A DNA stretch of 64,000 nucleotides, taken from positions 1-64,000 of the forward strand of contig NZ_LMKA01000112.1 of NCBI RefSeq assembly GCF_001421435.1. Reading direction: 5' to 3'. The DNA comes from Chryseobacterium sp. Leaf201. GTDB taxonomy: Bacteria; Bacteroidota; Bacteroidia; Flavobacteriales; Weeksellaceae. This document shows, one piece after another, positions 13,648-57,756 of the stretch (position 1 is its first letter; every line of letters begins with the position of its first letter). The notes below the pieces were generated by a model that did no database searches, had not been told where the DNA came from, and saw only the letters and a program-made list of their open reading frames with translations. A program made the translations under genes and the position numbers.

Positions 13648-13763
13648 GCAGCCCGACTTGAGCGGAGCTCATTTTTTCATTGCGACTGCTGAATGGTTAT
13701 AAGGATTGCTTTACTTCGCCCGCAATGACAAAATAGCGGGAGCGGAAGGCGGATAAAGCTGCC
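13648..13763. repeat. REP-like intergenic repeat, family A copy 1
   Basis: This element starts GCAGCCCGACTTGAGCGGAG and ends GCGGATAAAGCTGCC. Its centre holds an inserted hairpin, CATTGCG...CGCAATG, not present in the other copies at 23894, 36584 and 42691. It fills most of the spacer between the GH127 and esterase genes. Confidence 0.85.
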
Positions 13764-13801
13764 CAAAAACAAATTTATATTTAGCTTTTTCATTTTTAAA
13801 T

Positions 13802-16171: not shown

Positions 16172-16291
16172 AATTTTACTGATTCCTATATTTTTTAAAA
16201 ATAAAAGAAAGTATTTATATATAAAAGCAATTTTAGGCTGCGGCCTGTTTATAAAACGTATTCAACACGATAAAAAGTCCGTTAACACGAA

Positions 16292-16631: not shown

Positions 16632-16653
16632 AAGTGTATATGCCACATTTATT
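16632..16653 (+). promoter_or_regulatory. Proposed AraR operator upstream of araR
   Basis: AAGTGT-ATATGCC-ACATTTATT has the same arms and the same 7-base spacer as the sites at the araB and GH3 promoters. It lies 31 bases upstream of the araR -7 box, against 13 in the other two, so the geometry differs. It suggests autoregulation and could also act on the divergent GH127 gene. Confidence 0.65.
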
Positions 16654-16684
16654 TTACGGCCTGCTTTTATCAGCGCTAAAACAG

Positions 16685-16692
16685 TACCTTTG
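16685..16692 (+). promoter_or_regulatory. -7 promoter box of araR, decides the start codon
   Basis: TACCTTTG matches TAnnTTTG. Transcription should begin about 7 bases downstream, after the in-frame TTG at 16690, so that TTG cannot be the start and the ATG at 16708 is preferred with a leader of only about 10 bases. Confidence 0.6.
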
Positions 16693-16707
16693 CATAAATT
16701 GATTCAG

Positions 16708-17394
16708 ATGGTAAAAGACTACGGAAACTATCCCAGACATTTGGTTGCAGTTGACTGTATTATTTTCGGTTTTGACGGGGAAAATCTTAAGATCCTGCTG
16801 ATCAAAAGGGATTTTGAGCCTGAAAAAGGGCAATGGTCTCTGATGGGTGGCTTTATTAATTCTGATGAAACCTCGGATCAGGCCGCTTCCAGGGTCCTTA
16901 ATACACTGACGGGAATTGAGAATATATACCTTGAACAGCTGAAATGCTACAGTGGAACAGAGCGTGAACCTACTGCCCGAATCATATCCGTTTCTTATTA
17001 TGCGCTGATCAATATCGAAAAAGACATTCAGATCAATGAGCGGTACAGTGCCCAATGGTTTGACGTGAAAGATTTTCCGCACCTGATTTTTGACCACAAC
17101 GAAATGGTGCAGGATGCAGTATCCCGGTTGCGGTACCGTGCTTCTACACAGCCCATAGGATTTGAGCTCCTGCCGGAACGGTTTACCATGAAAGACCTGC
17201 AAAACCTATATGAGGCAATCTCCGGCGAAGAATATGATAAAAGAAATTTTATCAGCAAAATTAACAGCCTTGGAATTTTGGTGAGAACCGATGACAAAGA
17301 CATGACTTCTTCTAAAAAGGGTTCTTTTTTATACCGGTTTGATGAAGAGAAGTACCATAAGCGGATTTCGAAAGGATTTATGTTTAAGATGTAG
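16708..17394 (+). CDS. araR: Nudix-related transcriptional regulator, AraR type
   Basis: The 228-residue product has an N-terminal Nudix-like fold (about 8-135) and a C-terminal winged helix (about 150-228, with GFELLPERFTMKDLQNLYEA). The Nudix box, canonically GX5EX7REUXEEXGU, reads G48...E54...RVLNTLTGI, so all three metal-binding glutamates of the REUXEE part are lost and hydrolase activity is unlikely. Known relatives are NrtR and the Bacteroides AraR, which bind DNA and respond to nucleotides or L-arabinose. Position beside the arabinose genes and a shared dyad at the araR, araB and GH3 promoters support an arabinose-responsive repressor. A paralogue with the same layout heads the xylose block at 59.3 kb. 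Confidence 0.85.
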   Translation: MVKDYGNYPRHLVAVDCIIFGFDGENLKILLIKRDFEPEKGQWSLMGGFINSDETSDQAASRVLNTLTGIENIYLEQLKCYSGTEREPTARIISVSYYALINIEKDIQINERYSAQWFDVKDFPHLIFDHNEMVQDAVSRLRYRASTQPIGFELLPERFTMKDLQNLYEAISGEEYDKRNFISKINSLGILVRTDDKDMTSSKKGSFLYRFDEEKYHKRISKGFMFKM

Positions 17395-17416
17395 ATTGCC
17401 CTCCCATATTATATAC

Positions 17417-17453
17417 AAAACCCCTTAAAACTTATAGCTTTTAAGAGGTTTTT
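17417..17453. terminator. Bidirectional terminator between convergent genes
   Basis: AAAACCCCTTAAAA and TTTTAAGAGGTTTTT form a stem with one mismatch around a loop of about 8 bases, with A and T tracts on both sides. It serves araR (plus) and the secreted-protein gene (minus). Confidence 0.75.
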
Positions 17454-17471
17454 AGAATGGCACAGTGTATA

Positions 17472-18200
17472 TTATAATCTTTCCATGACCATTTTTCTTG
17501 TGCCCATATCAATTTCCTGTTTCAGTACGTCACGGGTATCTACATCCATATAATACGTACTTATTGCCTTTTTTTCTGAGATATCATCGGTTGCGGAAAC
17601 GATCCATACCGGCTTATTATTCAGGGTACCTTTTCGGGTTCCGGTAATATAGGCTTTGATGACGCCTATGGCAGATTTCGGATTGTAATCAAACAGGGCA
17701 ATTTCTACGGTGTAATTTTCTTTCAGCGGAAGCCAGCGGATCAGCTGCGGATAAAAATTGCTGTCAAAAAACTTTCCGTTTGTTTCTTCACTGATCTCAG
17801 TTTTCTTATTCTGGATCTTATCCAGATAATATCCTGTTACCCTATTCTTTTTCCCGAAATCCAGCAGCATCTCCCGCTGGGTATTGAATGAGCTGTGCTT
17901 TACGGGAGCAAGACCGGGAAAAGCCACTGCTGTTTCGTCTGTCCAGTCCGGCATGTTTTTCATCTTAACGGTTGTGGTAACATTAATACGGGTACCGGTT
18001 TTCAGAATTTTCGTATCAATCTTTGCCATTTCTATTTTTGAGGTGTCCTTCAGGGCATACCAGGTCATGGAATAGTCTTCACTTTTAATGAGTGACAGGT
18101 TAACCTGGTTGTTTCCCGGCGTCTGCAGGGACTGCGCCTCTGTGTAGGAAAAGGCAGACTGGAATACAAGTATTACGGATAAAAGTTTTAATAATTTCAT
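17472..18200 (-). CDS. Secreted protein of unknown function (possibly DUF3108-like)
   Basis: The 242-residue product has a clear signal peptide (about 1-22, ending TEAQ). The mature region looks all-beta, with alternating hydrophobic strands, and ends in a segment (TYYMDVDTRDVLKQEID) that recalls DUF3108-type periplasmic beta-barrel proteins, where a late strand pair carries a similar D...V.K motif. I am not certain of the family and give no function. A strong terminator at 18316-18349 separates it from the arabinose operon, and the convergent araR lies on the other side, so it is probably not part of the sugar regulon. Confidence 0.6.
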   Translation of the reverse strand: MKLLKLLSVILVFQSAFSYTEAQSLQTPGNNQVNLSLIKSEDYSMTWYALKDTSKIEMAKIDTKILKTGTRINVTTTVKMKNMPDWTDETAVAFPGLAPVKHSSFNTQREMLLDFGKKNRVTGYYLDKIQNKKTEISEETNGKFFDSNFYPQLIRWLPLKENYTVEIALFDYNPKSAIGVIKAYITGTRKGTLNNKPVWIVSATDDISEKKAISTYYMDVDTRDVLKQEIDMGTRKMVMERL

Positions 18201-18315
18201 AGCTTTAATTTTATATTAGTACTGCTTACCGAAAGATTGTTACACCGGCTGCTTTTATATTTTATTCTTAAGCCTCTCCAAATTCTGCATTTACTATTTT
18301 CCCCTGCTCTTCTCA

Positions 18316-18349
18316 TAAAAAAACAGGATGACCCAAAGGCATCCTGTCT
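18316..18349 (-). terminator. Terminator of the arabinose operon
   Basis: A perfect 8-bp stem, ACAGGATG (18323-18330) with CATCCTGT (18340-18347), is followed in the minus direction by a run of eight T residues. It lies 30 bases after the symporter stop codon. Confidence 0.85.
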
Positions 18350-18378
18350 GTTTAAATTTATTTGATATATCCTGTTAT

Positions 18379-20106
18379 TTACCAAAACCTTACATAAAGT
18401 GCCGTAAGCAGTAATAATGTAATGACAATCATTACCACGGTCCTGTTATCCACTCTGAACATGGAGGCATCGATTGCAAAAGCTTTCGGATTGACCTTCG
18501 GGCCTGCAAGACTGATCATCACCATTACGGCAACTGTGATAAAGAATGACCATCCCATATTAATGAGAAACGGAATCTCTGTTATGGTCTGAACAGCGCC
18601 GTTCTCTAATTTTTCATAGGTGAAAGCCGTATACAGCCAGGTTTCTTTCCCGAAAATACCGACTGCAAAACTGTTGAAGAAAATTGCAAGTAAAAAGCCC
18701 AGAAGAACTCCAACCAACGCTGCCGTTCCTGTGGTTCTCTTCCAGAACATCCCCAAAAGGAACATCGCAAAAACCCCGGGACTGATAAATCCTGTATATT
18801 TCTGGATGAATGTGAAACCTCCTTCCCCTCCGATTCCCAGCACATCCGTCCACGTAAATGCCAGTGCAACGAACATGGCGATAATAATTGCCCAGCGCCC
18901 GGTTCTTACCATCTCGATTTCGGTAGCATCTGTTTTCAGGTATTTTTTGTAAATATCCAACGTGAAAATCGTTGAAATACTGTTTACTTTCCCTGCTAGA
19001 GAAGCTACAATTGCGGCAGTCAGTGCTGCAACGGCCAGGCCTTTCAGCCCGGTTGGCAGAAATCCTAAAATAGCTGAATACGCGCCGTCTTTTACCCCAT
19101 TGAATCCCGGCAGATGGCCTTTTGTATATAAAACATACGCTGCAATCCCCGGAAGCATAACGATAACCGGCATAAATAACTTCAAAAATCCGGCAAATAA
19201 AATCCCGGTTCTTGCGGTTTTTAAATCAGCTCCCAAAGCGCGCTGCGTGATGTACTGGTTGCATCCCCAGTAATTCAGGTTAACAATCCACTGTCCTGCA
19301 AAATACATCGCCAATCCTGGCAGAACCACATATTTCTGAACACTCAGGTTCTCCGGCATTGCCAGGGTTGTGGTGGTTGTCGTTGGTTTGTCAAGCATTA
19401 ATTTAAAATGCTGCGGTGCTTCATTCATCAAGGTCTGAAAACCTGCGAAAGCATTTCCTACAGCCGCACCGTTAATCCTCTGGTCAACAATCTGCAGTGC
19501 CATATAAACGGTTGCAAAACCTCCGATAATCAAAACAGCGACCTGGATTACATCGGTATATCCGATTACTTTCATCCCGCCCAGACCGATCAGCAAAGCC
19601 ATCAGAAGCAGCCCGATCATGATGATATGAAGATTATCGCCTCCCAACAGCGTATCGATGGCCAAAGCTCCGAGATACAAAATGGAGGTAAGGTTGACAA
19701 TTACATAGAGAAACAGCCAGAAAACCGCCATAATCAGGGAAACCGATTTGTTGTAACGGGTTTCCAGAAACTGGGGCATGGTGTAAATTTTATTTTTAAG
19801 ATAAATCGGAATAAACCAGATGGCAATAATGATGAGCGCAACAGCGGCGAGCCATTCGTAAGCTGCCACGGCAATCCCTACAAAAAAGCCTTCGCCACTC
19901 ATCCCGATGAACTGCTCTGCGGAAATATTGGAAGCAATTAAACTGGCCCCGATTGCCCACCAGGTAAGCGATCCCTCTGCCAGAAAATAATCTTTACTGC
20001 CGGTAGCCGCAGATTTTTTCCTGTTATAAATCCAGATCCCGTATCCTGCGACCACCACAAAATAAATAAGAAATATAATGACGTCAATAGTTGATAAGTT
20101 TCCCAT
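18379..20106 (-). CDS. SSS-family sodium:sugar symporter (probable arabinose importer)
   Basis: This 575-residue integral membrane protein has about 14 hydrophobic segments and resembles the Vibrio Na+/galactose symporter vSGLT. Landmarks are the first-helix region with ASLIASNISAEQFIGMSGEG (about 53-72) and the SSS block with NLNYWGCNQYITQRALGAD (about 273-291). The substrate is probably L-arabinose because it is the last gene of the ara operon, two bases after galM. The sequence alone cannot exclude xylose or galactose. Confidence 0.88.
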   Translation of the reverse strand: MGNLSTIDVIIFLIYFVVVAGYGIWIYNRKKSAATGSKDYFLAEGSLTWWAIGASLIASNISAEQFIGMSGEGFFVGIAVAAYEWLAAVALIIIAIWFIPIYLKNKIYTMPQFLETRYNKSVSLIMAVFWLFLYVIVNLTSILYLGALAIDTLLGGDNLHIIMIGLLLMALLIGLGGMKVIGYTDVIQVAVLIIGGFATVYMALQIVDQRINGAAVGNAFAGFQTLMNEAPQHFKLMLDKPTTTTTTLAMPENLSVQKYVVLPGLAMYFAGQWIVNLNYWGCNQYITQRALGADLKTARTGILFAGFLKLFMPVIVMLPGIAAYVLYTKGHLPGFNGVKDGAYSAILGFLPTGLKGLAVAALTAAIVASLAGKVNSISTIFTLDIYKKYLKTDATEIEMVRTGRWAIIIAMFVALAFTWTDVLGIGGEGGFTFIQKYTGFISPGVFAMFLLGMFWKRTTGTAALVGVLLGFLLAIFFNSFAVGIFGKETWLYTAFTYEKLENGAVQTITEIPFLINMGWSFFITVAVMVMISLAGPKVNPKAFAIDASMFRVDNRTVVMIVITLLLLTALYVRFW

Positions 20107-20108
20107 AA

Positions 20109-21269
20109 TTAATTTTTAACAGAGAATTTATAAATGGTTTTAGTCTGGTATTTCTGTCCGGGCTTCAGTTCTGTAGAAGGGAAAGCCTGCTGGTTCGGGG
20201 AATCCGGATAATGCTGGGTCTCCAGGCAGAACCCGCTTCTTTTTTCATATTTACCGCCGGTTTTGGTTTCATATTTCCCATCCAGGAAGTTTCCGGAATA
20301 GAACTGAACGCCGGGCTGGTCACTCATTACCTCCATCACTCTTCCGCTTTCCGGATGATGGACGGTTGCAATGGTTCTCAGGCCTTTCCCGTTCGGGATC
20401 CAGTTATGGTCATAACCTTCGCCTAACCGGAGCTGTTCGTCATCGGAATCAATGTCTTTGCCGATTGGTTTTGAAACGGTAAAATCAAACGGAGTCCCTT
20501 TTACCGGCTTCAGTTCTCCGGTTGGGATAACGGTCTTATTCACAGGCAGAAACCGGTCTGCGTTGATCTGCATTTCGTGATCGGTAACGGGTTTTGTGAA
20601 ATCCCCTGAAAGGTTAAAATAAGAATGCTGGGTCAGATTGACAACAGTAGCCTTATCCGTCTCTGCCTCATATGAAATTTCCAGTGCATCATCATCGGTA
20701 AGCGTGTAGAATACAGTGGTGGTAAGTTTTCCCGGGAATCCTTCTTCACCGTCTGCACTTACATACGTCAGCTTAAGGGTAGGAAGCTGAGCATTTTCCA
20801 CAGGTTCAACAGTCCAGATTCTGGTATCAAATCCGTTTCTACCGCCATGGAGGCTGTTCGGGCCGTCGTTTTTATCCAATTCATAGGTCTTCCCTTCTAA
20901 AGTAAACGCTGCATTGGCAATCCTGTTGCCGTATCTTCCGATCAGGGCTCCGAAAAAATACGGGTTCCCGCTGAAATAATCTTCAGGCTTTGTAAACCCC
21001 AGGACAACATCTTCATATTTACCGTTTTTACCGGGAGCCGTAAGAGAGGTGATGATCCCTCCATAACTGATGACCTCCACTTTCATCCCGTTCTTATTGG
21101 TTAAGGTGTATTTTTTAACGGAATCGCCTTTTGCCGTTACCCCATAGTCTGAAACCTGAATATTTTTCATATTTTCTGATTGAGTTTTTTGATTAGTTTC
21201 TTTTTTATTACAGCCGAAAATACATAAAACTGTTAACAAAAAGAGTAAACTTCCTCCTATTTTTTTCAT
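20109..21269 (-). CDS. galM: Aldose 1-epimerase lipoprotein (mutarotase)
   Basis: It interconverts alpha and beta anomers of aldoses. Family histidines are visible at H141 (NSLHGGRNGFD) and H215 (NLTQHSYFNLSG), and the catalytic glutamate lies in GFCLETQHYPDSPN near residue 360. The N-terminus ends in LCIFGC with Cys20, a lipobox, so the mature enzyme is a membrane-anchored periplasmic lipoprotein, unlike cytoplasmic GalM of enterobacteria. It lies between araA (23-base gap) and the symporter (2-base gap), which suggests it supplies the anomer the carrier or AraA prefers. Length 386 is normal for the lipoprotein form. Confidence 0.92.
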   Translation of the reverse strand: MKKIGGSLLFLLTVLCIFGCNKKETNQKTQSENMKNIQVSDYGVTAKGDSVKKYTLTNKNGMKVEVISYGGIITSLTAPGKNGKYEDVVLGFTKPEDYFSGNPYFFGALIGRYGNRIANAAFTLEGKTYELDKNDGPNSLHGGRNGFDTRIWTVEPVENAQLPTLKLTYVSADGEEGFPGKLTTTVFYTLTDDDALEISYEAETDKATVVNLTQHSYFNLSGDFTKPVTDHEMQINADRFLPVNKTVIPTGELKPVKGTPFDFTVSKPIGKDIDSDDEQLRLGEGYDHNWIPNGKGLRTIATVHHPESGRVMEVMSDQPGVQFYSGNFLDGKYETKTGGKYEKRSGFCLETQHYPDSPNQQAFPSTELKPGQKYQTKTIYKFSVKN

Positions 21270-21292
21270 AATTGATCTATTTTTCTGAAGGA

Positions 21293-22789
21293 TTAACGGT
21301 AATATATTTCATTCCACCGAAGGGTATTTTTAAAATCACGGATTTTGGTATCTTCATCAATTACCAATGACTCGATGCCTGCGATCTCTGCAAAATCTTC
21401 CAGCTGTTCTGCACTGATGTTTTCACTGTAACATGTGTGATGCGCTCCACCGGCCAGAATCCATGCTTCCGCAGCCGTGTATAAATCCGGAAGCGGCTTC
21501 CAGAGGACTCTCGCCACAGGAAGTTTTGGTAATTCTTCGGTAATTTCCAATGCTCTTGTTTTGTTGATTAATAGTCTGAAATGATTTCCGAAATCCATTA
21601 AAGCCGCGTTCAGAGAATCGATATTTCCTCTTGAATTGAATACCAGGCGAACAGGATCGGCTTTTCCGCCAATTCCCAACGGATGAATTTCACAAGACGG
21701 TTTGTCAACCGCTAAAACAGGGTCAACTTCCAACATATGCGAGCCTAAAACCGAAGGATTTGAAGGATTGAGATGATAGGTATAATCTTCCATAAAGGCA
21801 TTTCCGCCTGCCAGACCCTGCCCCATTGTTTTCATGGCACGGACTAAGGCAGCCGTTTTCCAGTCGCCTTCTCCGGCAAAACCGTATCCTTTTTCCATCA
21901 GCCTCTGAACGGCAATTCCCGGAAGCTGCTCCAACCCATGAAGGTCTTCAAAAGTATCTGAAAAACCTTTGAAATTTCCGTCTTTCAGGAATTTTTCCAG
22001 TCCTAATTCTATTCTTGCCGCTGCTTCCAATGATTTTCTGTTGCTTCCACCGGATAGAAGAGATTTTGCCATTTTGTAAGAACTTTCATATTCTTCCATC
22101 AACGTTTTCACTTCACCGTCACTAATGGAATTGACAACGCTTACCAAATCACCAATTCCCCAGGTGTTTACCGAAAATCCGAATTTTGTTTCTGCTTCTA
22201 CTTTATCACCATCGGTTACGGCAACGTATCTCATATTGTCTCCAAAACGGGCGAATTTTGCACCCTGCCAGTCGTCCCAACCTGCAGCTACACGACTCCA
22301 GTCACCGATTTGTTTCTGAACCCTTTCTTCAGCCCAATGTCCGACAACGACTTTCCTGTTTTTGCGGAGGCGGCTTACCATAAACCCGAATTCACGGTCA
22401 CCGTGCGCGGCCTGATTCAGGTTCATAAAATCCATATCCATTGTAGCCCACGGAATATCCTGGTTGAACTGTGTATGCAAATGCAGCATTGGCTTTTGTA
22501 AAGCCGTCAAGCCACGAATCCACATTTTTGCAGGTGAAAACGTGTGCATCCAGGTTACAATCCCGATGCAGTTTTCCGCATGATTGGCTGCCGTTAATGT
22601 CTCAAAAATTTCTTCGGTAGATTTTACAGTTGGCTTAATAATGACTTTTACAGGAATTAATGAAGACTCATTAAAAGCTTCCACAATTTTCTGTGAATGT
22701 TCTGCAACCTGAGCCAATGTTTCAGGGCCGTATAAATGCTGGCTTCCGGTGATGAACCAGATTTCTTTGGTGTTGAGAGGTGTTAGCAT
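21293..22789 (-). CDS. araA: L-arabinose isomerase
   Basis: It converts L-arabinose to L-ribulose in the cytoplasm with a divalent metal. The four metal/catalytic residues of the E. coli enzyme (E306, E333, H350, H450) are found as E307 (GFAGEGDW), E334 ([11 protein letters not shown]), H351 ([10 protein letters not shown]) and H450 ([10 protein letters not shown]), and the length (498) equals the family norm. It follows araD after a 266-base spacer packed with palindromic repeats and precedes galM by 23 bases, so it may be transcribed from the araB promoter or partly from a local one. Confidence 0.97.
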
Positions 22790-22823
22790 ATATTGTAAAT
22801 GATAATTGATTATTTTTATTTTT

Positions 22824-22870
22824 CCACAGGTTTTACCTGCGGCTATTGGTATTGAACCCTTCGGGTTCTG
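22824..22870. repeat. Palindromic intergenic repeat, family B copy 2
   Basis: CCACAGGTTTTACCTGCGG followed by CTATTGGTATT and GAACCCTTCGGGTTC: two adjacent hairpins, nearly perfect in this copy. Confidence 0.85.
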
Positions 22871-22890
22871 TCTGAAATAAATTGTTTTAT

Positions 22891-22926
22891 CAAACCTTAT
22901 AGGTTTTAGAAACCTATAAGGTTTTG
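22891..22926. repeat. Palindromic hairpin repeat, family C copy 1
   Basis: Arms AAACCTTATAGGTTT and AAACCTATAAGGTTT flank a 3-base loop. The near-perfect 15-bp stem is flanked by C and G. Related copies are at 22995, 28154 and 36471. Confidence 0.85.
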
Positions 22927-22994
22927 TTTTTCGTTAATAAATAATTTCAGAATGATGCTATTTATTGTCCGTAGTAGGCATTTTTGCCATTCTT

Positions 22995-23030
22995 CAAACC
23001 TAACAGGTTTTAAAAACCTGTTAGGTTTTG
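22995..23030. repeat. Palindromic hairpin repeat, family C copy 2
   Basis: Arms AAACCTAACAGGTTTT and AAAACCTGTTAGGTTT form a near-perfect stem. It differs from copy 1 by compensating changes in both arms, which keeps the stem paired. Confidence 0.85.
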
Positions 23031-23055
23031 CTAACGTTAACTTATCAGAAGCTAT

Positions 23056-23754
23056 TTACTGTCCGTAATAGGAATTTTTGCCATGTTTACGTTCGTAATG
23101 TTTTTTGATGAGTGAATCTTTCAGGCGCGGTGCGTACGGGTTGATTTGTCTTGTACGATAAGCCATTTCGGCAATGGTTTCCAGAACTTTGCTGTTGTAA
23201 ACGGCTTTATCCGCGTTTTTACCCCAGGTGAACGGTCCGTGGTTTCCGATAAGCACCATTTCCACTTCTTCGTAAGACAGTTCTTTTTCTTTGAAGCAAT
23301 CCAGAATCTGAATTCCGGTATTGTATTCGTAATTTCCTTTAATTAAATCATCACGCATCGGCGGTGCACACGGAATATCTGTCGTTAGATGATCTGCATG
23401 TGTGGTTCCGAAAATCGGAATATCCATCTGAGCCTGAGCCCAGGCTACCGAATAAATGGCATGCGTATGAGAAATCCCGCCAATATTTTCCCAATTTTTG
23501 TAAAGGTAAGCGTGGGTTTTGGTGTCTGACGACGGTCTTAATTTTCCTTCGATAACATTCGCATCGTAATCTAAAATCACGATGTCTTCCGGTTTTAGAA
23601 TCTCATAAGGCACACCGCTTGGTTTGATGGCAAAAATCCCTTTATCACGGTCGACGGCACTCACGTTTCCGAATGTATAAACGACCAGCTTCAAGGCATC
23701 CAGCTGCATATTGGCTTCGTAACATTCTCTTTGAAGTTCTTTATAGATGCTCAT
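23056..23754 (-). CDS. araD: L-ribulose-5-phosphate 4-epimerase
   Basis: This class II aldolase-family epimerase makes D-xylulose-5-phosphate from L-ribulose-5-phosphate. The zinc ligands and catalytic residues match E. coli AraD shifted by one: D77 (RPSSDTKTH), H96 and H98 (ISHTHAIYS), H172 (IGNHGPFTWG). The 232-residue length is normal and it is cytoplasmic. It lies downstream of araB across 391 bases of repeat-rich spacer, with araA next on the same strand. Its product feeds the same pentose-phosphate entry point as xylB. Confidence 0.97.
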   Translation of the reverse strand: MSIYKELQRECYEANMQLDALKLVVYTFGNVSAVDRDKGIFAIKPSGVPYEILKPEDIVILDYDANVIEGKLRPSSDTKTHAYLYKNWENIGGISHTHAIYSVAWAQAQMDIPIFGTTHADHLTTDIPCAPPMRDDLIKGNYEYNTGIQILDCFKEKELSYEEVEMVLIGNHGPFTWGKNADKAVYNSKVLETIAEMAYRTRQINPYAPRLKDSLIKKHYERKHGKNSYYGQ

Positions 23755-23842
23755 TTTATTTTTTATTAAATGATTAAAGATTAAATGATTTAAAAATTAC
23801 AGGTGCTGCTTCGGGTTAAAGCCCGTTCCTATTGGTTTTCGT

Positions 23843-23877
23843 AAGCCTTGTCAAGGTTTTGAACCTTGACAAGGCTT
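23843..23877. repeat. Perfect 16-bp-arm palindrome
   Basis: AAGCCTTGTCAAGGTT and AACCTTGACAAGGCTT form a perfect stem around TTG. It is more GC-rich than family C but similar in size and may be a related mobile hairpin. Confidence 0.9.
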
Positions 23878-23893
23878 TAACGGTGAATTGCAC

Positions 23894-23972
23894 GCAGCCC
23901 GACCTGAGTGGAGCTCTTTTTGTGTAGCAAAGCGGAACAAAAAAGCGGGAACGGAGGGCGGATAAAGCTGCC
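23894..23972. repeat. REP-like intergenic repeat, family A copy 2
   Basis: This copy runs from GCAGCCCGACCTGAGTGGAG to GCGGATAAAGCTGCC, with an inner stem GCTCTTTTTGT...ACAAAAAAGC. It is almost identical to the copy at 36584-36662. Confidence 0.9.
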
Positions 23973-24040
23973 ATAAAAAATTTAGTTGTTTGTTTTTAGT
24001 TTTTGGTTTATAGACGTTTGTTAGTTTTAATTATATTTAA

Positions 24041-24118
24041 TTAACAGGTCGCCTCTATGAGGCTTGATGTGTATCGTCTAAATCGTTTGCTATTAACAGG
24101 GCGCTCCTACGGAGCTGG
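24041..24118. repeat. Two imperfect direct repeats with hairpins
   Basis: TTAACAGGTCGCCTCTATGAGG (24041 on) and TTAACAGGGCGCTCCTACGGAG (24093 on) share the frame TTAACAGG-CGC-CTAYGRRG, each with a small hairpin (CCTC-TAT-GAGG and CTCC-TAC-GGAG). Confidence 0.75.
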
Positions 24119-24145
24119 CAAAAGCAGATTGTAATTTCCTATCAA

Positions 24146-25843
24146 CTACAAACTGTCAACTTTCAACTTCTTTTTTGACTTGATATTATTTTCCGTGAAG
24201 TCTGCGAGAATCTGGTATTGGTTCATTAATTCGGCATATTTTTCCACGTGTTCTGTCTGCGGGAAATATTCCGCTTCGAAGTCGGAACCCATTTTTTGGC
24301 CTGCTTCCTGAATGTTCGGGTAAATGCCTGCCGAAACCGCTGCATAAATTGCTGCTCCCAAAGCCGGAGCCTGGTCAGATGCAGCTACAACGATCGGCAT
24401 ATTCAGGACGTTGGCCAACGTCTGCATAATAAATGGGGATTTTCTGGCCACACCTCCAATTCCGATGACTTTATTGATTTTTACACCTTCGTCTTCGAAA
24501 CGGTCAACAATCTTTTTGGAACCGAAACAAATGGCGTTGACCAATGCTTTGAAAATATGCGGCGCTTTTGTACCGAGCGAAAGATTGCTGATCGCCGCTT
24601 TCAGTTCCTGATTGGCATCCGGCGTTCTTCGTCCGTTGATCCAGTCCAGGGCAATTGGAACGGCTTCGGAAAGAGGAATTTTTTCTGCTTCCAGCGTAAG
24701 ATTGCGAATGAGATTGTTTTCTATTTCTTCTTTTAACAATTGCTTTTGGTTGTCATCAATCACGTTGGAACTCATCAGAATATTGTGAACAGGCCAGGTC
24801 AGAATATCTTTGTACCACGCCAATGCATCACCAAATGCAGACTGCCCGGCTTCAAGACCTATTAAGCCCGGAATAACGGAACCGTTTACCTGCCCGCAGA
24901 TTCCTCTGACGGTTTTATCGCCGATAATATCGTTGGGTGCCACCATAATATCGCAGGTGGAAGTTCCCATAATCCGGATCAGAATATTTTCTTCCACTTT
25001 TGCACCGACCGCTCCCGAATGGGCATCGAAAGTTCCTACGGCAATAACTGTGTTGGTAGTCAATCCAAGTTTTGTTGCCCATTCCTGGTTTAAGTTTCCT
25101 GCAACCTGATCTGAAGTATATGTTTTGTCGTACAACCTGTCACGAAGTTCAGCCAAAGACGGATCTAACAAACTGAGAAACTCTTTTGACGGCAGTCCAT
25201 CCCATGATTCGTGCCACATGGCTTTGTGCCCCGCTGCACAACGACTTCTTTTGAATGTCGTTAAATCCTGATTATCGGAAAGTAAAAAAGTAATATAATC
25301 GCAGTGTTCCATCCAGCTGTAAGCCGAGTTTCTCACTTTCTCATCTTGCCTGTTGATGTGCAGAATTTTTGCCCAAAACCATTCGGAGGAATAGATTCCG
25401 CCTTCAAATCTGGTATAGTCTTCACCACTCCAATTTCTCGCCAAATGGTTGATTTCTTCTGCTTCATCAATCGACGTATGGTCTTTCCATAAAACCATCA
25501 TTGCATTTGGATTTTGTTCGAAACCGGGCGTTAAGGCCAACGCAACTCCTTCTTTATTTACCGGAAGCGGTGATGAGCCGGTGGTATCGATGCAGATGCT
25601 GACGATATGTTCCGGTGCTACTCCACTTTCTTTCACAACGGTGGAAATGGTTTTTTCTAAACCTTCGATGTGGTCTAACGGATGCTGGCGAAACTGATTT
25701 TCTTCCGGCTGGCAGAATTTCCCCTGCTTCCAACGTTGGTAATAGCTGACGGATGTTGCAAGTTCGGCTCCGTTTTCTGTATCAATCAGGACTGCGCGCA
25801 CGGAATCTGTACCATAATCCAACCCGATAACATATTTCTTCAT
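24146..25843 (-). CDS. araB: Ribulokinase (FGGY kinase)
   Basis: It phosphorylates L-ribulose with ATP. The N-terminal phosphate-binding motif YVIGLDYGTDSVRAVLID (4-21) and the AraB-type insert GSSPLPVNKEGVALALTP are present, with a second ATPase-domain block VIGIGGVARKSPFIMQTLANV near 440-460. At 565 residues it matches bacterial AraB rather than the shorter xylulokinase encoded at 57.8 kb. It heads the arabinose operon with a promoter at 25995-26002 and an overlapping candidate AraR operator. The leader is about 145 bases. Confidence 0.95.
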   Translation of the reverse strand: MKKYVIGLDYGTDSVRAVLIDTENGAELATSVSYYQRWKQGKFCQPEENQFRQHPLDHIEGLEKTISTVVKESGVAPEHIVSICIDTTGSSPLPVNKEGVALALTPGFEQNPNAMMVLWKDHTSIDEAEEINHLARNWSGEDYTRFEGGIYSSEWFWAKILHINRQDEKVRNSAYSWMEHCDYITFLLSDNQDLTTFKRSRCAAGHKAMWHESWDGLPSKEFLSLLDPSLAELRDRLYDKTYTSDQVAGNLNQEWATKLGLTTNTVIAVGTFDAHSGAVGAKVEENILIRIMGTSTCDIMVAPNDIIGDKTVRGICGQVNGSVIPGLIGLEAGQSAFGDALAWYKDILTWPVHNILMSSNVIDDNQKQLLKEEIENNLIRNLTLEAEKIPLSEAVPIALDWINGRRTPDANQELKAAISNLSLGTKAPHIFKALVNAICFGSKKIVDRFEDEGVKINKVIGIGGVARKSPFIMQTLANVLNMPIVVAASDQAPALGAAIYAAVSAGIYPNIQEAGQKMGSDFEAEYFPQTEHVEKYAELMNQYQILADFTENNIKSKKKLKVDSL

Positions 25844-25878
25844 TTTATAATGAATTTAGTTTAATAATATTTTGATAG

Positions 25879-25901
25879 ACCCATCGACAATCTCAGGATG
25901 A
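25879..25901. repeat. Short dispersed repeat in the araB leader
   Basis: CCATCGACAATCTCAGGATGA resembles CCTTCGACAAGCTCAGGATAA at 42752-42772. This is a short repeat type dispersed in spacers. Confidence 0.55.
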
Positions 25902-25994
25902 TATTTCTGCTAAATGCTTAAGCTTAGATTTAATTTGATGACTAAAAAGAATCATTTTTAATTAAACTTTAACAAATCTGTTTTTGAGATAAAA

Positions 25995-26002
25995 CAAATA
26001 TA
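25995..26002 (-). promoter_or_regulatory. -7 promoter box of the araB operon
   Basis: The minus strand reads TATATTTG (TAnnTTTG). Together with the operator 13 bases upstream it forms a block of about 50 bases almost identical to the GH3 promoter at 30910. Confidence 0.75.
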
Positions 26003-26015
26003 ACATTCTATTCTA

Positions 26016-26037
26016 AATAAATGTACAAAATACACTT
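26016..26037 (-). promoter_or_regulatory. Proposed AraR operator at the araB promoter
   Basis: The minus strand reads AAGTGT-ATTTTGT-ACATTTATT. The core TGTA-N5-TACA is a perfect dyad. It covers the -33 region, as expected for a repressor site. Confidence 0.75.
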
Positions 26038-26072
26038 AATTTTATTTTTCTCTTTATTTACAAAGCTTTAGA

Positions 26073-28046
26073 CTATTTAATCTTTAAAATAATCAAAGAA
26101 TTAGCAGGAATTTCCACTGAAAATTTCCCTTTTTTAATGACAGAATCCTCTTCAACTGGCTGTATACTTTCTGTTTTAAAATTATTTTCGGCAGAAAGTA
26201 CAGGAGCTGTTAGGATCATTTTTGTTAGTTTTTGCCCCAGTTTTACATTTTTAGGATTAATTTCTATTGACTTTTTCTGAGAATCTGTGTTGACAATTTT
26301 GATAATGACTTCATTATTTTGACTGTCCTTTACTGCAGTTGCATACAATTTTTCCTGCCCGCTGACTACATTTTTATTGTGGTAAATCCTCAGTAAATCC
26401 GTTCCTTTATTATTTGAAAATAATTTCTGAACATAATAATTGGGTGTTGCGTAGGACTGCAGGTTATTGAACCAGATCAAGTCCGGCGTCCATTGCCAAC
26501 CATCGGCGTGAGCAAATAACGGCGCATAAGAAGTCATCGTCACGACATCCGCATTTCTTTCCAGTCCGGTCATAAAAGCGGCTTCCGAAAGTGCCGATTC
26601 CCAATTGTTTTTATTGTCCGGACTTACTGTTTTTACTGACTGAACGGCATATTCTCCGGCAAAAACTTTAGGCCCGTTTCTGTCATATTTATCATATCTC
26701 GCAGCATTTTCCTGAAACCATTTTGCCGAGTTGTAGTAATGTTCATCCACGATCTGTGCGTTGAGTTTTTGCAGCTCTTTCCAGCCGTAATCGAAAAATT
26801 CTCCGTCAGGCGACGGTCCGCTTCCTGAAATGATTTTAATCTCCGGATATTTGGAGTGAATGGCTTTTTCAAAAATTTTGTACCGTTCGATATAATCTTC
26901 GCCCCACTGTTCGTTTCCAACACCGATGTATTTCATATTAAACGGTTTGGGATGTCCCATTTCTTCACGGATTTTGCCCCATTTGGTATTGATATCCCCG
27001 TTGGCAAATTCAATTAAATCCAAAGCATCCTGAACGAAAGGATTTAATTCTTCTAAGTGAACCAGTTCGCCTGTGTTGAACTGACACGCGATTCCGCAGC
27101 TCAGAATCGGCAATGGCTCAGCTCCCAAATCTTCCGAAAGCTGGAAATATTCATAAAAACCGAGTCCAAAAGACTGCCAGTAATCCGACGTAAGACGGTG
27201 GGCAAACCCGTTGTTCCATTTGTTGATGAGATTTTCACGGTCTTCGACTTTTCCTATAGTTTTTTTCCATTGATAACGCTCTGCCAAAGTTCTTCCTTCG
27301 ACGATGCAACCACCCGGGAAACGTAAAAATCCCGGTTGTAAATCGTATAATTTCTGAACCAAATCTTTTCTTAAACCGCCTTTTCTGCCTTTCCAGGTAT
27401 CTTGCGGGAAGAGTGAAATCATATCCATATTCACCACACCTTTTCCGGTAAAAGTCATTTGAAGTTTTGCTTTTTCAACCGTATCTGAGGGTGAAAAAAC
27501 TGCGGTATATTTTTGCCAACCTTTTCCTTTAATCAATATCGGAACTGTAGAAATTATGTTTTCATTTTCGTCTACCAAGCTTGCATTCACAGCAGAAATA
27601 TTTCCTGATACATTTTCCAAGTCGAAACTGAAATCATACTTTGCACCTTGATGAAGCCCGATTCCTCTGAAACCTTCGTTCTCCAAAATATAATTTTTGT
27701 CATTGTAAACGGTGATTCTTGCGTAATTTTTATTGGTTTTAGAATGCTCAGAATAAATGGTCAAAAAACCGGAATCTAAATTTGGAGAAAGCGTTTTCGT
27801 ATTAGCCTGTTTCCAGCCCGTTAAGGGTTCATTAAATTCAAAGCTTCGGTTTTTGATAAGCTCGGCGTAAATTCCGCCATCAGCTGCAAAATTGATGTCT
27901 TCAAAGAAAATCCCGTACATCGTTGGCTGGATTTTGATGTTGGTAGGACTTCCATCCAGATCTAAAGTAAATTTTGTCGTTTGTGCAGATGAAAATGCAA
28001 CACAACTTGTGAGAAGAACTGTGAAAATTTTATTCTTAATTTTCAT
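26073..28046 (-). CDS. GH51 alpha-L-arabinofuranosidase
   Basis: It removes alpha-L-arabinofuranosyl side chains from arabinoxylan or arabinan. The acid/base is E379 in IGVGNEQWG and the nucleophile E465 in VFAGEYAVQS. A signal peptide (1-21) places it in the periplasm. Between the N-terminal strand and the barrel lies a carbohydrate-binding-like beta-sandwich (about 75-215), giving 657 residues, as in the longer GH51 forms. It follows GH3 by 157 bases and ends just upstream of the araB promoter, so it is probably induced with the arabinose genes from the GH3 promoter. Confidence 0.94.
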   Translation of the reverse strand: MKIKNKIFTVLLTSCVAFSSAQTTKFTLDLDGSPTNIKIQPTMYGIFFEDINFAADGGIYAELIKNRSFEFNEPLTGWKQANTKTLSPNLDSGFLTIYSEHSKTNKNYARITVYNDKNYILENEGFRGIGLHQGAKYDFSFDLENVSGNISAVNASLVDENENIISTVPILIKGKGWQKYTAVFSPSDTVEKAKLQMTFTGKGVVNMDMISLFPQDTWKGRKGGLRKDLVQKLYDLQPGFLRFPGGCIVEGRTLAERYQWKKTIGKVEDRENLINKWNNGFAHRLTSDYWQSFGLGFYEYFQLSEDLGAEPLPILSCGIACQFNTGELVHLEELNPFVQDALDLIEFANGDINTKWGKIREEMGHPKPFNMKYIGVGNEQWGEDYIERYKIFEKAIHSKYPEIKIISGSGPSPDGEFFDYGWKELQKLNAQIVDEHYYNSAKWFQENAARYDKYDRNGPKVFAGEYAVQSVKTVSPDNKNNWESALSEAAFMTGLERNADVVTMTSYAPLFAHADGWQWTPDLIWFNNLQSYATPNYYVQKLFSNNKGTDLLRIYHNKNVVSGQEKLYATAVKDSQNNEVIIKIVNTDSQKKSIEINPKNVKLGQKLTKMILTAPVLSAENNFKTESIQPVEEDSVIKKGKFSVEIPANSLIILKIK

Positions 28047-28074
28047 TATAATTTATTTTCGGGATTAATTCAAC

Positions 28075-28102
28075 CAGACACTTTGACTACGTTCAGTGTG
28101 AC
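28075..28102. repeat. Short inverted repeat between GH3 and GH51
   Basis: CACTTTGACTACGTTCAGTGTG is an imperfect palindrome, CAC(T)TTGA-N-TTCA-GTG, of a type dispersed in spacers. Confidence 0.5.
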
Positions 28103-28153
28103 ATCTCTGATAGTGGACTTTTGAATTGAATGGTATTATTCTGTTTTATTGAT

Positions 28154-28186
28154 AAACCTTATAGGTTTTAAAAACATATAAGGTTT
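28154..28186. repeat. Palindromic hairpin repeat, family C copy 3
   Basis: AAACCTTATAGGTTT and AAACATATAAGGTTT form the same stem as copy 1 with one mismatch. Confidence 0.75.
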
Positions 28187-28203
28187 CCTACATTGAGAAT
28201 AGC

Positions 28204-30831
28204 TTATTTGACTTTCAACTGAATACTTTTTAAATCTGAGTTTTTTGAAGTTCCACCGTAAAAAATGGTATAATCACCAGGTTTTGAAATTAAATCATCC
28301 GCTTTTTCGTCATAAAATTTGAATGATTCTCCGGAAATGTTTAACTGGATGTGTTTTGTTTCTTTTGCTTTAATTAAAACTTTTTCAAAAGCCCGCAACG
28401 TTTTTACGGGTGCTAAAGGATCGTTATTCCTTTTCACATACACCTGCACCACTTCTTCACCGTCTCTTGCTGAAGTATTGGTGACCGGAATGGTTACCGT
28501 GATATTCTCATCAGGATTGATGCTGCTTTTACTTAATTCAGCATTACCAAAAGTGAATTTTGAGTAGCTCAAACCGTGGCCAAATGCATATAACGGATCT
28601 TCGGTCATATAGCGGTAGGTTCTTCCTTTCATATCATAATTCTCAAAACTCTGATGCTTGCTTGTGGTCGAAAGTGCATTATCCAACTGCTCAAGATTCC
28701 TGTAAAAAGTAATGGGTAATTTTCCCGAAGGATTATAATCTCCCGCCAGAACATCGGCAACGGCAGTTCCACTGGATTGTCCGCCGTACCAGGCATTCAG
28801 CAAAGCATCATAATTTTTTTCATCCTGCTGTAAACCAAGCGCACTTCCCGTGCACAGTACAAAAACAACTGGTTTTCCTGTTTTTCTTAATTCTGCCAGC
28901 AATTCACGCTGAACTTTCGGAAGCTCTATGGATGTTTTATCGCCCCCTTTAAAACCTTCAGCACTGACCTGCATTTCTTCTCCTTCAAGACTTGGGGAAA
29001 GTCCGCCTACAAAAACAATTACGTCCGCATTTTTCACCTTTTCTTTTACTGAATTGAAATTCACCGGATCTTTTCGGTATACTTCAAAGCCAATGCTTAC
29101 GTATTTTCCTTTCTGGCTGTGTCGAAGTTCTACCAAATATTCTTTTCCTTTCTCCATTTTCACCGGAAATTCCGAAGGATGTCTGGCGTCGGGACCTTTT
29201 CTTGTGGCGATTTCTTTTCCATCGATCAAAAGCGTGTAAATATCTGATGTTGAAGCAGAAAATATAACCTCACCGGAATAACTGCTTTTAAAAACACCTG
29301 ATATTCTTGCCGAAGTATTTTCCCGGGCAACTCCCGGTGCAAGCTGGGTTCCACCAAAACTATTGTAGGTAATTCCTGTTTTATTAACGGAAGTATTAAC
29401 CGGTTTTTCTTTGAATTCGTTATTATTAAAAAACTCAACCTTCATTCCTTTTTCACCGTTTTCCTGACTTACAAAATTCTGATAAAGAGATCTTCTGGAT
29501 GATGGATCTGCCACTTCGCTTCCTTTTTCGTAAATAATTTCAGCATTTGGAAATTTGGTTTTAATTCCTTCTAAAATCGTCACGGTTGAAGAAGGTGTTC
29601 CGTTGTAATTTCCCAACTGCATAATTCCGTCATCGGCATTGGGACCAACAACCGCTATTTTTTTAATATTTTTATGTAAAGGCAGAACATTTTTTTCATT
29701 TTTCATCAGGACAATAGACTTTTGCGCCATTTTTAATGCCTGCTCTTTGTGTTCTTTAGAATCTACCGTAGAATAAGGAATATTGTTCCAGTAAACGGAA
29801 GATTTAGGATCAAGCATACCCAGTTCAAACCAACCTTTCAGAATTCTTCGCATTGAAATGTCGAGGTCTTTTTCGGTGATTAATCCGCTTGCCAAAGATT
29901 TATTAAGATTGTTGTACGTATCACCGCATTCCAGATCTGTTGAATGTTTTAACGCATCTGCCGCGGTTGTTTTTTCATCGGGATGGGTTCCGTGGTATTT
30001 TTCCTGGTAGAAATCTGCCAGAGCCCAGCAATCTGAAACGACCATTCCGTCATATTTCCATTTACCACGAAGAATTTCATTAAGCAACGTATTGTTTGCA
30101 CAGCAAGGCTGACCTTCAAAAGCATTGTAAGCGCACATCACTTCTCTCACATTGCCTTCTAACACCAATGCTTTGAAAGCCGGAAGATAAGTTTCATACA
30201 AATCTCTTCTGGAAATTTCAGCGTTGTAGGAATGCCGGTTCCATTCAGGACCGCTGTGAACGGCAAAATGCTTGGCACAGGCATGGGTCTTAAAATATTT
30301 AGGATCATTTCCCTGCAGGCCTTTTACCGCAGCAACACCCAAAACAGAAGTAAGATACGGATCTTCACCATAGGTTTCCTGACCTCTTCCCCATCTCGGA
30401 TCTCTGAAAATATTGATGTTTGGAGTCCAGAATGTAAGACCTTCGTAACGTCCGGTTTTACCGGCTTCATCAAAAGATTTATTATATTTTGCCCGGGCTT
30501 CGTCTGAGATCATTTCAAAAGTTTTGAGATGTTCCGGAACGTCCCAGGTTGCCGCCAATCCGATTGCCTGAGGGAAAACGGTAGCCGTTCCTGCTCTTGC
30601 CACACCGTGAAGCGCTTCATTCCACCATCCGTAAGCCGGAATTTCCAGTCGGGGCACTGCTTTGGAATTATCCATCATCATTCCGATTTTTTCATCAACG
30701 GTTAATAATCCCAATAAGTTTTCAATCCTCTTTTCAACCGGAAGATTAGGATCTCGAAACGGATATTTATAATTCTGAGCAAAACTGAAAGCGCAGACTA
30801 CAACTGATATGGTTATTAAAATTTTGTTCAT
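28204..30831 (-). CDS. GH3 beta-xylosidase-type glycosidase with PA14 domain
   Basis: This periplasmic GH3 enzyme has 875 residues. The nucleophile is D267 in MVVSDCWAL, and conserved sugar-binding blocks WWNEALHGV (69-77) and KHFAVHSGPEWNRH (187-200) are present. A PA14-like domain (about 455-590) is inserted in the C-terminal alpha/beta sandwich, and a fibronectin type III-like domain closes the protein. The layout is that of Bacteroidota beta-xylosidases or beta-glucosidases; context favours xylosides or arabinosides. The signal peptide ends near residue 18. It has its own promoter with an AraR-type operator, so it seems to belong to the arabinose regulon rather than to the upstream xylan transcript. 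Confidence 0.92.
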   Translation of the reverse strand: MNKILITISVVVCAFSFAQNYKYPFRDPNLPVEKRIENLLGLLTVDEKIGMMMDNSKAVPRLEIPAYGWWNEALHGVARAGTATVFPQAIGLAATWDVPEHLKTFEMISDEARAKYNKSFDEAGKTGRYEGLTFWTPNINIFRDPRWGRGQETYGEDPYLTSVLGVAAVKGLQGNDPKYFKTHACAKHFAVHSGPEWNRHSYNAEISRRDLYETYLPAFKALVLEGNVREVMCAYNAFEGQPCCANNTLLNEILRGKWKYDGMVVSDCWALADFYQEKYHGTHPDEKTTAADALKHSTDLECGDTYNNLNKSLASGLITEKDLDISMRRILKGWFELGMLDPKSSVYWNNIPYSTVDSKEHKEQALKMAQKSIVLMKNEKNVLPLHKNIKKIAVVGPNADDGIMQLGNYNGTPSSTVTILEGIKTKFPNAEIIYEKGSEVADPSSRRSLYQNFVSQENGEKGMKVEFFNNNEFKEKPVNTSVNKTGITYNSFGGTQLAPGVARENTSARISGVFKSSYSGEVIFSASTSDIYTLLIDGKEIATRKGPDARHPSEFPVKMEKGKEYLVELRHSQKGKYVSIGFEVYRKDPVNFNSVKEKVKNADVIVFVGGLSPSLEGEEMQVSAEGFKGGDKTSIELPKVQRELLAELRKTGKPVVFVLCTGSALGLQQDEKNYDALLNAWYGGQSSGTAVADVLAGDYNPSGKLPITFYRNLEQLDNALSTTSKHQSFENYDMKGRTYRYMTEDPLYAFGHGLSYSKFTFGNAELSKSSINPDENITVTIPVTNTSARDGEEVVQVYVKRNNDPLAPVKTLRAFEKVLIKAKETKHIQLNISGESFKFYDEKADDLISKPGDYTIFYGGTSKNSDLKSIQLKVK

Positions 30832-30909
30832 ATGATTGATTTTAAAGCCGTTTTCAATTAGATTATCTTAAAAATTATTACTGAATATTTCTTTATTATG
30901 TGATAAAGA

Positions 30910-30917
30910 CAAATATA
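30910..30917 (-). promoter_or_regulatory. -7 promoter box of the GH3-GH51 unit
   Basis: The minus strand reads TATATTTG, with the same spacing to the operator (13 bases) as at araB. The expected leader is about 70 bases. Confidence 0.75.
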
Positions 30918-30930
30918 ACATTCTATTTTT

Positions 30931-30952
30931 AATAAATGTATATATTACACTT
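30931..30952 (-). promoter_or_regulatory. Proposed AraR operator at the GH3 promoter
   Basis: The minus strand reads AAGTGT-AATATAT-ACATTTATT, with core TGTA-N5-TACA a perfect dyad. Confidence 0.75.
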
Positions 30953-36501: not shown

Positions 36502-36517
36502 ATTTGATTATTGTTTT

Positions 36518-36564
36518 CCACAGGTTGCATCTGTGGCTATTGATATTGAATCCTTCGGATTCTC
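36518..36564. repeat. Palindromic intergenic repeat, family B copy 3
   Basis: CCACAGGTTGCATCTGTGG, then CTATTGATATT and GAATCCTTCGGATTC: both hairpins are kept by paired changes (for example C/G to T/A in the second stem). Confidence 0.85.
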
Positions 36565-36583
36565 CTGTTGCGTCGAATCTCCC

Positions 36584-36662
36584 GCAGCCCGACCTGAGTG
36601 GAGCTCTTTTTGTGGAGCAAAGCGGAACAAAAAAGCGGGAACGGAGGGCGGATTAAGCTGCC
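36584..36662. repeat. REP-like intergenic repeat, family A copy 3
   Basis: This copy is nearly identical to that at 23894-23972 and again sits directly between two genes of the locus. Confidence 0.9.
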
Positions 36663-36677
36663 CAAATCATTCCTGTG

Positions 36678-56329: not shown

Positions 56330-57658
56330 TTAGATATACATGTTTACGATAGCTTCGAACAGTTCCTGTTTTCCGCTTTTTGGCTGAGGCTCACCGATTT
56401 CATGTGCTATTTTCCGAAGATCCTCGAGGGAAAGGGTGCCTTCTTCAAATGCTTTTCCGTTTCCGCTGTCAAAAGAGGCATAACGGTCTGTTCTCAGTTT
56501 TTTATAATCTGAATGCTCAAGAATATCTGCTGCTGCCAGAAGGCCTTTTGCAAATACATCCATTCCGGAGATATGAGAGATGAATAAATCTTCAGGATCA
56601 ATAGAATTCCTTCTGATTTTGGCATCAAAATTAACACCGCCTGTTCCCAGGCCTCCTGCAGGAAGAAGAACCAGCCACGCCTGAACCATGTCATAGTAAT
56701 CTACCGGGAACTGGTCTGTATCCCATCCGTTCTGGTGGTCTCCCCTGTTCGCATCAATGCTTCCCAATAACCCTGCGTCTACGGCTACCTGAAGCTCATG
56801 TTCAAAAGTATGGCCTGCCAGTGTTGCATGGTTTACTTCAATATTAAGTTTAAAATCTTTATCCAGTCCGTAATGTCTCAGGAACCCGATTACCGTTTCA
56901 GAATCATAATCATACTGATGTTTGGTAGGCTCCATCGGTTTAGGCTCAATCAGGAAAGTTCCTTTGAAACCCTGCTGGCGGGCGTAATCCCTGGACATGG
57001 AAAGGAAGCGAGCCAGATGGTCTTTTTCACGTTTCATATCGGTGTTCAGAAGGCTCATATACCCTTCTCTGCCTCCCCAGAATACATAGTTCTCACCTCC
57101 CAATGCAATGGTTGCGTCAATAGAATTCTTAACCTGGGTACCGGCGCATGCCAGTACGTCAAAGTTCGGGTTTGTGGAAGCTCCGTTCATGTATCTTTCG
57201 TGGGTGAATACATTGGCTGTACCCCATAAAAGCTTAATTCCCGTTTCTGCCTGTTTCTGTTTTGCATATTCTACAACAGCCTGAAGGTTTTTCTCATACG
57301 CTTTCCAGTTGTCAGCAGGCTCTACCAGATCAATATCGTGGAAACAGTAATATCCGAAGCCCATTTTAGACATAAACTCGAAACCGGCATCCAACTTGTG
57401 CATGGCTCTGGTCACAGCATCATTTCCGGTATCCCAAGGGTGATGGATGGTAGGTCCGCCGAAAGGATCACTTCCGTCTGCGCATAAGGTATGCCACCAG
57501 GCCATTGCAAAACGGGTCCATTCTTTCATCGGTTTTCCCATGATGATTTTTTCTGCATCGTAATAGCGGAAGGCCATCGGGTTTCTGCTTTCTTTTCCTT
57601 CAAACTGAATTTTTTCAATACCTGTAAAAAACTCTTTTGTACCTGTTAAAGTGTTCAT
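56330..57658 (-). CDS. xylA: Xylose isomerase
   Basis: It converts D-xylose to D-xylulose in the cytoplasm with two divalent metals. Catalytic and metal residues are in place: H107 and D110 (YCFHDIDL), E238 and K240 ([16 protein letters not shown]), E274 and H277 ([11 protein letters not shown]), and the block VFWGGREGY (192-200). At 442 residues it is a class II isomerase of normal length. It follows xylB by 98 bases on the same strand. Confidence 0.97.
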
Positions 57659-57756
57659 ATTGATTTATTTATTTTTTAAAATTTTGTGTAAAAATCCCCT
57701 GCTCACCGGTGTAAAACAGCCGGTAAGTGCAATGGAAGAATTCCGTTGTTGTTCGT

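Follow-up and report, generated by a model that had tools for sequence, protein, structure and literature searches.

The stretch analysed here, the window of 64,000 nucleotides from position 1 to 64,000 of contig NZ_LMKA01000112.1 of Chryseobacterium sp. Leaf201, holds a large arabinoxylan locus. It carries araR (16708–17394, + strand), whose product has a Nudix-like domain and an NrtR/AraR winged helix and is a predicted L-arabinose-responsive repressor. It also carries a predicted AraR-controlled operon of araB, araD, araA, an aldose epimerase and an SSF sodium:sugar symporter (18379–25843, − strand), and the genes of a beta-xylosidase-like GH3 and a GH51-type alpha-L-arabinofuranosidase (26073–30831, − strand), identified by Pfam; the family number GH51 is our reading of the Pfam arabinofuranosidase domains. 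Genes of the GH127, GH30, GH115, GH67, GH10, GH97 and GH43 families are also present, and near the right end sits a xylose operon that includes SusC/SusD genes. A 22-bp dyad, AAGTGT-N7-ACATTTATT, stands upstream of araR, araB and GH3, and a related site upstream of an xylR-like gene. From comparisons of sequence we consider it highly probable that AraR, a predicted NrtR-family repressor of arabinose genes, uses these dyads as its operators, with the fourth probably extending its reach to xylR.

As the initial annotation had claimed, the 22-mer is present in three exact copies in the window, at 16632–16653 (+), 26016–26037 (−) and 30931–30952 (−), and these are the sole exact copies in the whole 4.34-Mb genome. 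A chance repeat is ruled out as their origin by dinucleotide shuffles of the window, 0/100 of which had a copy. The symmetric part of the dyad is a 19-bp core, AArTGT-N7-ACAyTT, the terminal ATT of the 22-mer lying on the promoter side. The cores at 16632–16650 (+), 26019–26037 (−) and 30934–30952 (−) are the predicted AraR operators of araR, of the araB operon and of the GH3-GH51 genes respectively. A genome-wide motif search, which the same annotation had proposed as a check, did not reveal many sites upstream of unrelated genes: the 4 matches to the relaxed core outside the window all fall within long reading frames (judged by eye) and none is upstream of a gene. With the stricter core AAGTGT-N7-ACAYTT, both strands counted, there are 4–10 matches in 8 genomes that encode AraR (1–4 in the backward control) and 0–1 in 4 genomes without AraR (control 1–5); in terms of places this amounts to 3–8 in each of the 8 and 0–1 in each of the 4.

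In the flavobacterial convention the −7 box is placed at −12 to −5 (PMC9723704). The likely −7 boxes of araB and GH3 (both TATATTTG) lie at 25995–26002 and 30910–30917 on the − strand, exactly 13 bases from the 22-mers, and the two promoters are identical at 44/50 positions. With the box at −12 to −5 the core reaches from about −47 to −29 and overlaps the −33 region. The 13-base distance, the near identity of the two promoters and the overlap are thus as first described. The likely −7 box of araR, TACCTTTG (16685–16692, +), fits TAnnTTTG and lies 34 nt past the core; 31 bases separate it from the 22-mer, so that the site is upstream of −33. Across the genomes compared a TAnnTTTG box is found 15–16 nt past the core in 20/20 araB sites (two from another family), 16–17 nt past the core in 15/15 GH3 sites, and 26–40 nt past the core at araR, where all 19 aligned regions have one. 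The differing spacing defines two promoter types: operator over −33 at araB and GH3, operator upstream of −33 at araR. From their order and orientation the genes from araB to the symporter would form one operon; the gaps are 391 nt between araB and araD and 266 nt between araD and araA.

The araR site is present in 19/19 AraR-positive genomes of the genus that were examined and the araB site in 18/18 (the araB of the 19th genome was not recovered), as well as in 2/2 genomes of another family. The GH3 site is found in 15 of the 16 genus genomes with a readable upstream region; the window is counted in all three cases. The araR and araB sites are also kept in other flavobacterial genera. The importance of the spacer was assessed on the best 80 of 570 araR loci, of which 19 belong to Chryseobacterium or Epilithonimonas and 61 to other records. 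AAGTGT-N7-ACACTT, with at most one mismatch, occurs in 48/80 araR upstream regions (18/19 in Chryseobacterium/Epilithonimonas, 30/61 in the others) and in 26/34 readable araB upstream regions (8/9 and 18/25 respectively). Spacers of 3–6 and 8–11 gave no match at araB; at araR they gave 6 at spacer 5, 1 at spacer 10 and 0 elsewhere. Swapped half-sites, used as a control on the same araR and araB regions, gave 0 at every spacer.

Pfam finds the domains NUDIX, NrtR_WHD and AraR_C in the araR product. Its best match in the PDB is 5bs6 (E 5.3e-67), the AraR of Bacteroides thetaiotaomicron (BtAraR), with which it shares 46.5% identity; among named sequences its nearest matches come from Chryseobacterium. 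A tree of NrtR proteins, BtXylR not being among the sequences, puts both in the same clade with a support of 0.989–0.992, apart from the other three members of the NrtR family in this genome, which encodes four NrtR_WHD proteins. In the alignment the Nudix box is degenerate (RVLNTLTGI for REUXEEXGU, three Glu replaced) and impaired in the manner described for AraR, where two or three Glu are exchanged. In BtAraR, R34, R86 and H131 hydrogen-bond L-arabinose, and K179, R180, N181, K184, K204 and R205 touch DNA (PMC4666351). The three arabinose-contacting residues are kept in the araR product and in 80/80 orthologs. K179, R180 and N181 are kept in 80/80 orthologs, and the position of K204 is K or R in 77/80. 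Two further NrtR-family proteins are encoded at C1:27894–28547 and C81:32066–32455. Among the matches listed, C1-like proteins appear in many genomes of the genus, AraR-positive and AraR-less alike.

The initial annotation had named araR, araB and GH3 as the regulon. The three sites stand; the list is not complete, as a fourth core match at 60272–60290 had been missed. This predicted operator is a perfect palindrome, AAGTGTATAAAAAACACTT, and lies 306 nt upstream of xylR (59259–59984, −), an xylR-like gene for an NrtR-family regulator and the first of xylR-xylB-xylA-susC-susD. The xylR-like gene clusters with xylose isomerase and xylulokinase-like kinase genes: xylB (FGGY kinase) and xylA cover 56330–59241 (−) and were assigned by profile matches, the score of xylA being above and that of XylB below the NCBIfam cut-offs. 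The likely −7 box of xylR is again TATATTTG (60013–60020, −), a consensus match in an alignment of 22 upstream regions, 251 nt from the fourth site. A different dyad, ATGATAA-NN-TTATCAT, has its sole exact match in the window at 60117–60132. With one mismatch at most it stands upstream of xylR in 62/62 AraR-positive and 13/22 AraR-less genomes, and it is a candidate for XylR's own operator, distinct from the AraR dyad. Many relatives have extra CTTATCATA half-sites in the region upstream of xylR.

We then compared the presence of the fourth site with that of AraR. A survey of 36 genomes of the genus gave 19 genomes with an AraR ortholog (at least 73% identical) and araA (18 also with araB, the other assembly being fragmented) and 17 with none of them. 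In the wider search 148 genomes of the genus were covered; xylR was found in 84 and AraR in 62, all of these among the 84. A site was counted for xylR if it lay no more than 420 nt from the start codon, and a second xylR copy of G111, which has no site, was left out. In a first batch of 22 genomes the site is present in 19/19 AraR-positive and 0/3 AraR-less genomes. For the remaining 62 genomes the outcome was predicted beforehand, and the site was found in 42/43 AraR-positive and 1/19 AraR-less genomes. The pooled values are 61/62 and 1/22 (Fisher p = 1.5e-17, kinship between genomes ignored). Among the 61 sites 57 are exact to AARTGT-N7-ACAYTT and 4 have one mismatch. Exact half-sites at six other spacers were seen upstream of xylR in one case, G121 (spacer 8). 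This is the AraR-positive genome that misses the N7 site; its half-sites are 8 bp apart. The AraR-less genome with a site is G146. Its assembly is 73% complete and had been flagged as weak beforehand, and its closest neighbour in the tree is AraR-positive; AraR may be absent merely from the assembly.

Long stretches of the window have a match of about 83–90% in the near sister G035. Over the 40 kb compared this genome is without araR, the araA-araD-araB-GH51-GH3 block and GH127, and it keeps the symporter, the epimerase, GH30 and GH115. Its XylR protein is 99.6% identical and the DNA around the dyad closely similar, while the dyad itself has lost one base and carries one changed half-site letter. 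As a strain that naturally has no AraR and whose predicted xylR operator is broken, G035 gives the clearest contrast of any single genome at the level of sequence. Separately, four stretches of the window (13728–13768, 22809–22868, 23894–23972 and 36515–36666) have their match in a single G035 stretch of about 160 bases, which suggests a dispersed intergenic repeat.

The xylR site is not always at the same place. It starts at −302 to −313 in 47 AraR-positive genomes and at −211 or −212 in 14; in the first-batch loci the positions are −303 to −306 or −211/−212. The shift between the two is 94 bp, i.e. about nine helix turns. Six of the 14 genomes with the near position still have a CTTATCATA element at about −250. 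This points to a switch of the site from one side of this fixed element to the other instead of a simple displacement by an insertion or deletion. Two positions about nine turns apart are a mere hint of DNA looping. We regard it as reasonably likely that Chryseobacterium AraR directly controls xylR, with a wiring that tracks AraR and an operator in two places that would fit looping at a distance.

Relatives carry the site before further genes. AAATGT-N7-ACATTT, a two-mismatch version of the dyad, lies directly before the start codon of GH127 in 17/17 readable relatives. In the window a site before GH127 (16172–16200) was sought and not found, the upstream letters remaining similar; in L143, whose AraR is at 85% the closest among the matches listed, GH127 is present without the dyad. 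In 7/8 AraR-positive genomes a perfect site lies between GH67 and galK (loci L311–L316 and L319), with a transaldolase gene 37–42 nt downstream, at the distant end of the locus. These seven loci were selected for having the site; the transaldolase assignment comes from Pfam in one of them, G028, in which the next genes encode transketolases. For the eighth genome, G131, no perfect site between GH67 and galK is listed. In the genome of the window the transaldolase gene is on contig C134 and has no site there. In G013 and G131 a site lies about 480–500 nt upstream of GH30.

The assignment of the dyads to AraR, which the initial annotation had proposed, thus gains support from homology, operator architecture, conservation in the genus and co-occurrence with the xylR site. 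A mechanism can be outlined. Without L-arabinose an AraR dimer would occupy AArTGT-N7-ACAyTT. At araB and GH3 it would cover the −33 region, and a polymerase facing AraR there would be unable to use the TATATTTG promoter. L-arabinose from arabinoxylan would enter the Nudix pocket and AraR would release the DNA, which would switch on araBDA, the epimerase, the symporter, GH3 and GH51. Repression and its release by arabinose are taken here by analogy from BtAraR, and the position over −33 at araB and GH3 fits repression. The araR site, upstream of −33, would fit mild autoregulation. The fourth operator would tie the xylose regulator operon to arabinose. A search of 50 nt on either side of the xylR site in 19 genomes turned up no TAnnTTTG box facing outward, so this operator would probably act from afar. 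What we infer from these comparisons is binding by the AraR protein of the window and the direction in which xylR and araR are controlled. For araR and xylR we give slightly better than even chances to a repression lifted by arabinose, such that arabinose derived from arabinoxylan would ready the cell for xylose use.

This missing box at xylR is one of several observations that weigh against AraR as the regulator at the dyads. Others concern the sites: one half-site is mostly ACATTT instead of ACACTT (ATGT on its own strand), and the relaxed core is not enriched by count in the whole genome, with 8 matches and 8 in the backward control, so that we rely on the location of the sites instead. In one of the 8 AraR-positive genomes, G135, the stricter core gave 4 matches, as did its control, and G008 has no GH3 site. 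The ATGATAA dyad, predicted in both groups, is missing in 9/22 AraR-less genomes. On the side of the protein, 4 of the 6 BtAraR residues that contact bases are identical in the AraR of the window, K184 being replaced by S and R205 by K. Position 184 is S or N in 78/80 AraR orthologs and position 205 is K in 79/80, while a 2015 paper termed both K184 and R205 absolutely conserved in AraR (PMC4666351). A protein of G038 falls within the BtAraR clade, yet this genome has no araA/araB match at the cut-off. G035 is also without GH97, one GH43 and the adjoining esterase, none of which has the dyad, so its loss is not confined to AraR targets. Lastly, a rough tree of the xylR locus (401 nt) gives about six changes of AraR state; the 84 genomes are related and far from independent, and the true weight of the co-occurrence is therefore much below the Fisher p.

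The alternative that survives best keeps AraR as the binding protein and changes its action: AraR would activate at xylR and araR, or the xylR site would have no transcriptional effect. Neither position is classic for a repressor, the araR site being upstream of −33 and the xylR site 251 nt from the −7 box. On the other hand BtAraR no longer binds DNA in the presence of arabinose, and genes predicted as BtAraR targets are upregulated on glycans that contain arabinose (PMC4666351); furthermore the xylR site is present or absent together with AraR, which speaks against a lack of function. We hold this alternative to be possible and rather unlikely. It is improbable that the site upstream of xylR serves instead the small divergent gene at 60527–61057. 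The site does stand between this gene and xylR, 236 nt from the former, but the gene is found upstream of xylR in just 4/22 loci, whereas the site is there in all 19 AraR-positive ones of these loci, which makes xylR the likelier target.

Slightly less credit still can be given to the idea that the dyads belong to another NrtR paralog, either the XylR-like protein or those of C1 and C81. The genome encodes four candidates of this type and its best palindrome sits upstream of the xylR-like gene. However, the 22 AraR-less genomes keep xylR, yet 21 of them lack the dyad, and it is broken in G035 next to a nearly identical XylR protein. The XylR-like proteins also differ at DNA-contacting positions, with I179, K180 and H204 where BtAraR carries K, R and K; these three observations led us to reject a paralog as the binder. 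In addition the separate ATGATAA dyad is common upstream of xylR, and the C1-like paralogs (about 43% identity) also occur in many AraR-less genomes among the matches listed. It is hardly credible that the dyads represent a Crp-like element or a promoter element of a general kind: Bacteroides ara and xyl operons do bear a Crp-like palindrome as well (PMC3878776), but its consensus TATGTTnTAnAACATA has another sequence and another spacing, the distance from the dyad to the −7 box varies at araR and is large at xylR, and the copy upstream of xylR tracks AraR.

AraR and its arabinose targets are already known; the new part is the link to xylR. The BtAraR regulon has been described in Bacteroides thetaiotaomicron and Prevotella (Chang et al. 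2015, PMC4666351), and in gel shifts BtAraR bound oligonucleotides that contain AAGTGTAAAAAAGACACTT and related sites (PMC4666351). The system of the window resembles it in its NrtR-family regulator, here a predicted repressor with the residues of the arabinose pocket kept, and in its predicted targets: araB, araD, araA, a mutarotase, a symporter and arabinofuranosidases. The sites of the window also share the GTGT half-sites and the 7-bp spacer of the oligonucleotides tested by electrophoretic mobility shift assay. Unlike in Bacteroides, the genes of the window are in separate operons and araR is apparently transcribed alone; the site of the araB operon is single, not tandem; one half-site of the dyad is usually ACATTT and the protein carries K184S/N and R205K; and there is a predicted operator at xylR, with others in relatives at GH127 and at the transaldolase operon. 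No xylR is named as a BtAraR target in the sections of PMC4666351 at hand. The XylR of Bacteroides (BT0791) is an NrtR-family regulator linked to xylose genes (PMC3878776), like the one described here; this comparison is by description only, and the xylR of the window differs in carrying a predicted operator that tracks AraR. Two other systems were set aside as not relevant, namely the XylRA of PMC12125979, likened to E. coli XylR and not of NrtR type, and the AraR and XylR of PMC10766802, described as LacI-family. In the open-access literature, supplementary tables excluded, we came upon no account of an AraR regulon in flavobacteria, Chryseobacterium included, or of an AraR operator at xylR.

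In E. coli the arabinose regulator AraC acts on xylose genes, and arabinose blocks xylose use. The case described here is similar in that an arabinose regulator is predicted to act on xylose use, and different in that AraR comes from an unrelated protein family. The AraR regulon of gut Bacteroides would be carried over to flavobacteria with defined sites, and it probably extends into xylose control. The genus offers natural comparisons, namely genomes in which araR and the AraR-type operator are absent and xylR is retained. Such wiring suggests a built-in link between two pentoses that are released together from arabinoxylan, in which the sensing of one plant sugar may help to decide the use of another.

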